Of a stretch of DNA of 37,373 nt, positions 13,700 to 28,598 are shown in pieces. The stretch covers positions 1-37,373 of the forward strand of contig CAMREV010000007.1 of the NCBI GenBank assembly GCA_947041945.1, written 5' to 3'. Source of the DNA: an uncultured Mycoplasmataceae bacterium (GTDB lineage: Bacteria; Bacillota_I; Bacilli_A; Mycoplasmatales; Mycoplasmoidaceae). The notes beneath the pieces were generated by a model. That model was not told the origin of the DNA. It saw only the letters and a list, made by a program, of their open reading frames with translations, and ran no database searches. The first letter of the stretch is position 1, and every line of letters starts with the position of its first letter. The position numbers and the translations under genes are program-made.

Positions 13700-13725
13700 A
13701 TATTTTTTATCTCCCAATTTAATCA

Positions 13726-13738
13726 ATTATAGTATAAT
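13726..13738. promoter_or_regulatory. Palindromic bidirectional -10 region for rel and secDF
   Basis: The 13 bases read ATTATAGTATAAT: a TATAAT box on the minus strand (13731-13726) and one on the plus strand (13733-13738), mirror images about a single G at 13732. The minus box is 26 bp before the rel ATG, with a GGGAG ribosome site between. The plus box ends 9 bp before the secDF ATG, which would give secDF an almost leaderless mRNA. Confidence 0.6.
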
Positions 13739-13747
13739 AGTTATGTT

Positions 13748-16700
13748 ATGAAAGTCAAAAATAAGGCAAAAAATAATTTTAATGGTTCTTCATGAATCAA
13801 ATCAAAACATTATTTATTTATATTCCTAAAATTCTTTTTAGTTATAGGTGTATTAATTGGCTCAATGGCGTCAATTGTTTTTAGTGCTTTTTATATATCG
13901 AAAAGTAATAACAGTACTGGTGAATTCGGTAATACTTACAATGTGAGATATGAAGTTGACTTAGCTGTTGAAGAAGGAAATAAAAATCTTTCTAATAATC
14001 AACTTAATACATTAGAAAACTCAGAAAATAGATTAAGAACAACAGCAGAATCATTTGAAGAGTGATTATTTTCTAAGAAAATTTATAATGATGGTGTTCA
14101 ATATGCAATTAAGCAAAAACCTGATGGTAATTACTCAGGTTGAGTATTTACAAATCTATACAATATTGAAAAAGTAGATTTTAAATTTGAAAAAGTTAAT
14201 CAAGACCCAATGAGCGTTATTTCAAAAAATGTTACTAATAACTTTATAGAAGTAATCCCTTATGATAAAACAAGAAATCCAAATCAAATTCCTGCTAACA
14301 ATTCAGTTTTAGTTAATTCAATTGGGATGAATGCAACAAATCCAAAAAAATCTCCAACAAATGGTTCAATTGATAATAACTCATCATTAGAAACTCCAGG
14401 TGTTGAGTTTAATTTTCCTACAAGTGTTAGTATTAAAAAATTTATGGAATTTAAATCAGGAACAAATGCTGATGTTTCAAGTTTGCCTGAAAACTATAAA
14501 TGATTTGTTTTTAATGATTTAGATGGTTTAGTTCAAAGATTAAATTATGTTAAATCTGTTTCTTATTGAAGACAAAACAACAATACTAGCAAATATCTAG
14601 AATTAGGAGAAGCTGGACTTCTTCCTCTAACTCTATATGATCCTAGTATTAACGTTAGTGAAACAGGTGTCCCTAATGGTGTTGAAAACTTAAATCATAT
14701 TGAATTTCTATATGAATCACTTACTGCAGAAGAAAAAACTTGAGGAGATATAGCAAGTGGTGATAATTCTGATAATACTGTTGCTGTTAATAAATCTAAT
14801 ATTTTAGATTTTTATAATCAATTTGATAGTAGAGCTGCAGCTGGTGCCACAGATAAAACTACTGGAAATTTTGACTCTTCAATCCAAGTGCTAGTTCAAA
14901 AAAATATTGTTGCTGAAATAAATTATTTAAATTATCATAAATGATTCCCACAATCACATGAATTAAGTGCTGTTCAAGAAGAAACAACAAGCAATTCAAC
15001 AAGACTACCAACTGCTGGTCAATTATCAGGTCCAGAAGATGTTAATACTATTAAAATTCCTTTAGAAGAAGAAAGTACTTTACCAGACTTCTTATTTGCT
15101 AATTCAGCAAACAAGAATGTTGACTCATTAATGGAGTTCTTTAGAGACTTTGGATCATTAAGTCCAATCACACCTTTTGTTAACTCTTCAATAATCCCTG
15201 ATACATCTCAAAAAATTCAATTTTTTGGTAATGGTTCTGTTACAGTTCCTTTAATTGCAGATTCTATTACTGGAATGAGTGCGTATAACTCAATTTTCTT
15301 AGCTAGTGGAATAATTATTCTTACTATTGCAGTTATTGTTTCAATTATTTATCGTATACCTGGCTTGATTGCTTCATTAGCAGTTATATTTACTGGTGTT
15401 ATCACATTTGCTTTTTCAAATTTATTAGGTTTAGTATTCTCATTTGGAAGTTTCCTTGCAATAATTTTGGGAATGTTGTTAACATTATGTTCATCAATAG
15501 TTTTTCTCGAGAGAATTAGGAAGAATGTGATTGATAGGAAATCCATATTTGACTCAAACATAATTTCAATTAATAAATCTATTACAACAATTTTAGATAT
15601 TCATGTGATTTCAATTATAGTTGGTCTTGCAACTGCAATGATGGGTGTTCTTGAAATGGTAGATTTTGGTTTCGAGCTAGTATTAACATCATTAGTTTCT
15701 TTAGTTTCAATTTTCTTAATATTCATTTTTATTCAAATGAATTTTTCAAAGACAAAAATGTTTTGAAAAAATAATCTTTATTTTTATTCAATAAATAAAA
15801 AAATTAAAGAAAATTATATTTCAGAAAATAATACAATTCAAAAAATTGAAAAACCATTTAGATTTTCAAAACAAATATTCCTTTCATCATTAGCTGTTTT
15901 TGTAGCGATCTTAGTAATTGTTATATCTTTAATATTTACTATTGGTATTCAAAATTCTGTAACATTCAAAACTGGAACTTCAATATATATTTTCCAACAA
16001 GTAGATGTTTCAAAAATTATTAGTTTAATCGGTGGAAATTGAGATGTTAAGATTGATGATAATTTTATATTCCTACAATCTTCTGAAATTTTTTCTGAAG
16101 CTGATATTTTAAGTAAAATTTCTTCATTAGGTTTAAATGCTGATAATATCTTTGTTGCTAGATCTTCGACAAATGTAATTAATCAAGTTTCTACCATTAA
16201 CACATTATCTCTTTTAGCAGCGGCTGGATTTATTGCGGTTTACTCTACAATTAGATTGGGAGTGTTTGCTGTGTTACCAATCTTTGTTTCGACACTTCTT
16301 GTAACGTTGTTCTCAGGTGCTATCCAATATATCTTATTTGTACCAATTGATAATTACTTCATTTACTCAATGACATTTATATTCCTGTTGAATAACATAT
16401 TATCAGTCATCTTTATTTCTACAACTAAATCAAGATTTAGTAATAGAGAAATATTTGATAAAGATAAAATTAAATTATTCTTAGAAAGAAATATTTTAAA
16501 CTTAAGACATTTATGAATATCACTTTTATTAATAGTAGTATTTAGTATTTCAATATCAATGATATTTATTTCAACAACTTTATTCTGATCATTCTTATCA
16601 ATTTTAATTGCAGTAATATTTAGCTTCCCATTCACATTATTATTTACAGCATATATTTACTATGTAATATTATTATTTAGACAAAAATATATTAAAAATA

Positions 16701-18318: not shown

Positions 18319-18713
18319 GGGGATGTCAAGGCTTCGACATGATTAAGCGAGTCTTAAATGCAGTGGGGTAAGCCCCTTATAGCTCTAGGTATTTAATAAA
18401 TGCTAACAAATCAAATGATAACGTTGAACTTTCAGCTTTTGAAATAAACGCTATCCAAAACCAACAATTAAATTTCGCATATACTGCTTAATATACATTT
18501 TTGAAAATTTTATAAATCTTCTATAAATTTATAATCTTAAAACATAGATAGCTTTATTTTTCCTTTCTAGAAATAAAGTGAAAATTCTATAGAAAGAAAT
18601 CACCTTATATAATTGTTTCATTGTATATATTGTGAAAAACTAATGAAACTAAACTGTAGACTTTATTATAAGTTTAATTATGGAAATGGGTTCAATTCCC
18701 ATCATCTCCACCA
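18319..18713 (+). ncRNA. ssrA: Transfer-messenger RNA (tmRNA)
   Basis: The 5' end GGGGATGTCAAGGCTTCGAC and the 3' end with GGGTTCAATTCCC and CATCTCC-A-CCA form the alanyl-tRNA-like half; the seven-base acceptor arms pair, with one G-U. The CCA is encoded. A tag frame runs from GCT at 18402 to TAA at 18489-18491 and gives 29 residues, starting ANKSNDNVELS and ending NFAYTA. The tag is longer than the 10-11 residues of most bacteria, as known for mycoplasmas. tmRNA with SmpB rescues stalled ribosomes and marks the product for proteolysis. Length is 395 bases, one piece, not permuted. Confidence 0.96.
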
Positions 18714-28477: not shown

Positions 28478-28487
28478 ACTTTTGTTT

Positions 28488-28509
28488 AAAATGTGACATC
28501 ACACATTTT
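28488..28509. repeat. Second hairpin downstream of topA
   Basis: AAAATGTG (28488-28495) pairs with CACATTTT (28502-28509) across a 6-base loop. Read in the plus direction it ends in a T-run and could be a back-up terminator. For the minus-strand sigma gene it lies about 90 bp past the stop. The remaining 28510-28598 shows nothing I can name. Confidence 0.5.
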
Positions 28510-28598
28510 TAAAAACTTATTGCTGCTTCATTTCTGACCTGACAAGTTTCATTATAAAAACTGTAATGTCATATATATTATAATATTTTATGAATATT

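Follow-up and report, generated by a model that had tools for sequence, protein, structure and literature searches.

Putative back-to-back -10 boxes in the short gap between divergent rel and secDF-like genes of an uncultured Mycoplasmataceae bacterium

We analysed a stretch of 37,373 nt from an uncultured Mycoplasmataceae bacterium (assembly GCA_947041945.1, contig CAMREV010000007.1), referred to here as the window. The source is a mollicute that uses TGA as a tryptophan codon, and the two genes considered here, rel and a SecDF-like gene (hereafter secDF), are open reading frames read in that way. Their start codons face away from each other across a gap of 48 bp (Table 1). The rel product scores 524.9 bits against TIGR00691, over the cut-off of 499.2, and has Pfam matches to HD_4 and RelA_SpoT. 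The product of the divergent gene has no match in Pfam; it matches NF046001 (SecDF_plasm, E = 4e-36) and the MPN396 family (E = 3e-17), in both cases under the curated cut-off. Given these scores against models of the mollicute SecDF and MPN396 type, 'SecDF-like' is the safe name. We considered a TTG at 13726 as the rel start codon and rejected it: the ATG, or a point beyond it, is where homologues begin, and a TTG start would place the rel promoter box described below on the start codon. A scan of genome contigs with rel found no relatives, and a literature search under MPN397 or MG278 found no paper on rel/secDF transcription. Elsewhere in the window lie a tmRNA on the plus strand (18319-18713; tag AIQNQQLNFAYTA) and a small SRP RNA on the minus strand (28485-28577).

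Table 1. Features of the rel/secDF locus, in window coordinates.
Feature	Position	Strand	Remarks
rel, RelA/SpoT family protein, 716 aa	11549..13699	-	HD + RelA_SpoT domains; ATG 13699
Intergenic region, 48 bp	13700..13747	.	separates the rel and secDF start codons
rel Shine-Dalgarno GGGAGA	13710..13715	-	10 nt upstream of rel ATG
Putative rel -10 box TATAAT	13726..13731	-	reads 13731 to 13726; sole TAWAAT on that strand within gap
13-bp odd palindrome ATTATA-G-TATAAT	13726..13738	.	arises from two adjoining -10 hexamers
Alternative rel promoter register TTGACT-16-TATACT (10/12), weak	13731..13758	-	start would be near 13724
Putative secDF -10 box TATAAT	13733..13738	+	sole TAWAAT on that strand within gap
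SecDF-like membrane protein, 1012 aa	13748..16786	+	ATG 13748; TGA = Trp

A sequence-only reading had drawn attention to a perfect odd palindrome in this gap, and it is present exactly as described: ATTATAGTATAAT, at 13726-13738, is symmetrical around its central base. However, two perfect TATAAT hexamers on opposite strands and one base apart always give a dyad of this kind, so that the symmetry carries no information beyond the presence of two consensus -10 boxes with a gap of one. With an A+T content of 83%, TATAAT-like hexamers are cheap; shuffles of the 48-bp gap carry TATAAT on both strands in 10% of cases. Palindromes with 6-bp arms and a gap of 0 or 1 number 59 in the window, against 64 +/- 7 in shuffles, and the count for odd palindromes with such arms is 36, against 35.6. 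Genome-wide (661 kb), the counts are 18 for ATTATA-N0-6-TATAAT and 21 for a reversed control pattern. Neither odd palindromes nor inverted -10 pairs exceed background in the window or the genome, and on this ground we rejected the palindrome as a special motif. By contrast, only 0.9% of shuffles of the rel/secDF gap contain ATTATA-N0-6-TATAAT, and pure composition is therefore unlikely to explain the placement. What is unusual about the palindrome is its location in the rel/secDF gap, not palindromy itself.

Mapped promoters of M. gallisepticum carry TA[T/A]AAT followed by a spacer of 5-7 nt, mostly 6, and a purine start, and a motif search in that species recovered no -35 motif (PMC4245973). 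Applying these rules with a 6-nt spacer, we predict that secDF transcription starts near 13745 (G), 3 nt upstream of the ATG, and rel transcription near 13719 (A), giving a leader of ~20 nt. Between the rel box and the rel ATG are 26 nt, which include a Shine-Dalgarno sequence; a same-genus genome (G001) has GGGAGC ahead of rel. The secDF box lies 9 nt from its ATG and has no Shine-Dalgarno sequence, which predicts a near-leaderless mRNA. The predicted start of secDF transcription is also the site of an additional, out-of-frame ATG, 5 bases ahead of the start codon of the gene (ATGTTATG, 13743-13750). We compared both spacings with those of 165 genes sampled from the genome; these and our other gene-context statistics derive from sampled genome stretches and a simple ORF caller. 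The nearest -10 boxes cluster ~15-35 nt from the start codon, and a further group lies at 5-12 nt. Shine-Dalgarno motifs precede 2 of 13 genes in this further group and 105 of the 165 genes as a whole (Fisher P = 0.0003). The rel gene matches the 15-35 nt group and secDF the 5-12 nt group, and the box spacings are typical for the genome. Leaderless genes have been described in mycoplasmas (PMC3160421), with examples in Mesoplasma florum (PMC7745072). Like them, secDF has a Pribnow box only a few bases from its start codon, within the 5-12 nt that we took to define such genes, and lacks a Shine-Dalgarno sequence; unlike them, its predicted leader is ~3 nt rather than exactly 0. The earlier suggestion that the -10 boxes serve both genes is thus retained in part: with one box per gene, each the only hexamer of its kind on its strand and at a genome-typical distance, the gap probably contains two promoters, one for each divergent gene, whereas the shared melting that was proposed along with them does not hold, as set out below.

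We searched for the same arrangement in relatives. Among 95 family genomes, 15 from six genera have rel and secDF head to head; in the other two same-genus genomes they are on separate contigs. A back-to-back TATAAT pair with a gap of 0-6 was found in 8 of 14 head-to-head gaps tested, against ~0.5 expected from shuffles, and the fifteenth gap (G064) had no such pair by inspection. The paired arrangement is thus present in 8 of the 15 genomes, representing ~4 lineages. However, once each strand has a box, the two stand back to back by chance with a probability of ~0.12-0.2 in most gaps (0.07-0.54 overall). On this basis 1.3 of 9 lineages would be expected to have the pair, and 4 do (P = 0.03; lineages split by eye, G064 left out). 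The excess over the packing expectation is therefore modest. Between related species whose rel DNA is 77-92% identical, the paired boxes are identical. The distance between the two boxes is 1 in the window, 0 in five relatives (G026, G018, G029, G116 and G112) and 3 in two (G035 and G069). Hence, of the conservation anticipated for the palindrome, it is the paired -10 arrangement that recurs in several lineages; exact symmetry is not conserved, since the gap varies and the pair is missing elsewhere.

This pattern bears on the possibility that a dimeric regulator of rel and secDF uses the palindrome as its operator, as a perfect dyad between two divergent genes might suggest. We consider an operator most improbable: the dyad consists of exactly two -10 consensus boxes, its spacing shifts from 0 to 3 in relatives, no conserved half-site was seen beyond TATAAT, and reversed A+T palindromes are equally common.

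A TATAAT lies 6-11 nt ahead of the secDF ATG in most head-to-head relatives, and likewise in the same-genus genome G002, so a box close ahead of the gene is apparently a conserved feature of secDF itself. In G002 the neighbourhood is rearranged: rel does not adjoin secDF, which instead stands in tandem directly behind an SRP RNA gene (L002 1304-1480), with scpA/scpB-like ORFs, recognised by eye, further upstream. The secDF promoter there nevertheless reads ATTATA-TAG-TATAAT, with no divergent gene beside it, indicating that an inverted partner alone does not demonstrate divergent use. It could be argued from G002, and from the background frequency of comparable palindromes in the window, that only one arm of the rel/secDF palindrome is a real promoter, the other being a chance match in A+T-rich DNA whose gene uses a promoter inside the coding sequence of its neighbour. 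We regard this as quite improbable, given that both boxes are perfect and at proper distances from their genes, that paired boxes are kept between related species, and that the sole other rel candidate we found, TTGATT-18-TAAAAT at 13805-13776, is weak.

The sequence-only reading had also proposed that the bases melted by RNA polymerase could be the same for both directions of transcription, such that the two genes may compete or be balanced by one opening event. A transcription bubble spans ~-11 to +2. For the perfect registers, the predicted bubbles occupy ~13734-13747 (secDF) and 13730-13717 (rel), flanking the centre and leaving 13731-13733 in neither. With no base in common there would be no single opening event, and melting of the same bases fails for these registers. 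The best-register starts are 26 bp apart with 6-nt spacers (24-28 bp with spacers of 5-7 nt), the bubbles would be separate, and each complex would fire in one direction; balance by one opening event accordingly finds no support. Bases are shared only in two poorer registers that match the consensus at 5 of 6 positions, TATAGT (13728-13733) and TATACT (13736-13731), and only in weaker registers do the starts come as close as 16 or 21 bp.

These poorer registers are nonetheless the basis on which the gap could be a true bidirectional promoter of the kind described by Warman and Grainger, the palindrome being bound either way through the overlapping TATAGT and TATACT, with rel and secDF in competition. 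The two boxes have central bases in common, transcription from them is predicted to start at a G in either direction (13740 and 13724), the two starts being 16 bp apart and so within the 7-25 bp of the definition (PMC10268837), and a TTGACT is positioned 16 bp from TATACT. However, the -35-like site is at chance level, with 7 TTGACT-16-TATACT-like sites found against 11.2 expected from shuffles; mapped mycoplasma promoters favour TA[T/A]AAT (PMC4245973); and perfect TATAAT registers are available that do not overlap and place the starts 26 bp apart. We therefore consider a bidirectional promoter unlikely. Known bidirectional promoters have one shared -10 element and starts 7-25 bp apart, most commonly 18 (PMC10268837, PMC12825309); positions -7 and -11 coincide on the two strands, and the promoters often lie between divergent genes (Middlemiss et al. 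2023, PMC10268837; Warman et al. 2026, PMC12825309). The rel/secDF gap resembles them in that each strand has a -10 element, TATAAT, within the single site 13726-13738, probably too close together for two polymerases at once. It differs in that the two perfect hexamers are complete and side by side, separated by one base rather than sharing -7 and -11. Since no hexamer is shared and the best-register starts are predicted to be 26 bp apart, we do not class the gap as a bidirectional promoter, although its steric behaviour would be similar.

RNA polymerase has a footprint of ~75 bp. Footprints on the two boxes would overlap almost entirely, making it unlikely that two polymerases occupy the gap at once. 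Competition between rel and secDF, as originally suggested, is consequently possible on steric grounds, but at the five bidirectional promoters tested in E. coli none was seen at basal activity, firing being too low (PMC12825309). The closest precedent for the rel/secDF gap is in M. florum, in which back-to-back overlapping divergent promoters were mapped by 5'-RACE (Matteau et al. 2020, PMC7745072, Fig. EV3). In both cases the organism is a mollicute, the genes are divergent and the -10 boxes stand back to back on opposite strands; in M. florum the starts are mapped, whereas those of rel and secDF are predicted. As in M. florum, the two genes have a -10 box apiece, located at a normal distance, and the spacing of the boxes implies overlapping footprints. 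The rel/secDF gap is a new instance of an arrangement already known in mollicutes.

We conclude that the 48-bp gap probably holds two separate, ordinary promoters of the sigma-70 type, packed back to back. The minus-strand TATAAT would start rel with a short leader that includes the Shine-Dalgarno sequence, the plus-strand TATAAT would start secDF as a near-leaderless mRNA, and the palindrome would be a by-product of placing two consensus boxes one base apart. With footprints that overlap almost completely, one polymerase would be at the site at a time; each binding event would fire one way and, at modest activity, rel and secDF would be largely independent. The gap appears to be a tightly packed arrangement of a known type rather than a shared switch, an example of two promoters fitted into 48 bp by a reduced genome. 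It is conceivable, but in our view very doubtful, that the conserved pair has been kept because, with overlapping promoters, the DNA allows either the (p)ppGpp enzyme or the secretion protein to be transcribed but not both at once. If so, rel and secDF would be coupled without a regulator, in a bacterium that has few transcription factors. The conserved rel/secDF pair is a place to test promoter interference in mollicutes. The family search gave secDF matches in all genomes of genus g9 but rel matches in none of them, and rel was likewise without a match in g3, g4 and g5; rel has apparently been lost in whole genera.

Lastly, we considered whether back-to-back boxes are a habit of the genome as a whole. 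In a blind sample of its divergent gaps, minus the rel/secDF gap, 4 of 13 had pairs with a gap of 0-3, where 1.3 were expected (P = 0.03). A further comparison gave stronger P values, but these depend in part on stretches picked around known hits. However, a sample from G035 gave 1 of 16, against 0.8 expected, and the share of back-to-back pairs located within divergent gaps (7 of 18) was no higher than that of the control pattern (5 of 21; P = 0.49). We therefore rejected a genome-wide habit. Divergent gaps contain face-to-face pairs as well, and the genome as a whole therefore does not favour the back-to-back geometry. Individual cases include the gap beside a NifU-like gene, which also has back-to-back boxes, and the gap beside dnaA, with the pair ATTATA-ACC-TATAAT (L098 5462-5476); on the other side of the dnaA gap is an rpmH-like ORF, recognised by eye, and the area is likely the replication origin.
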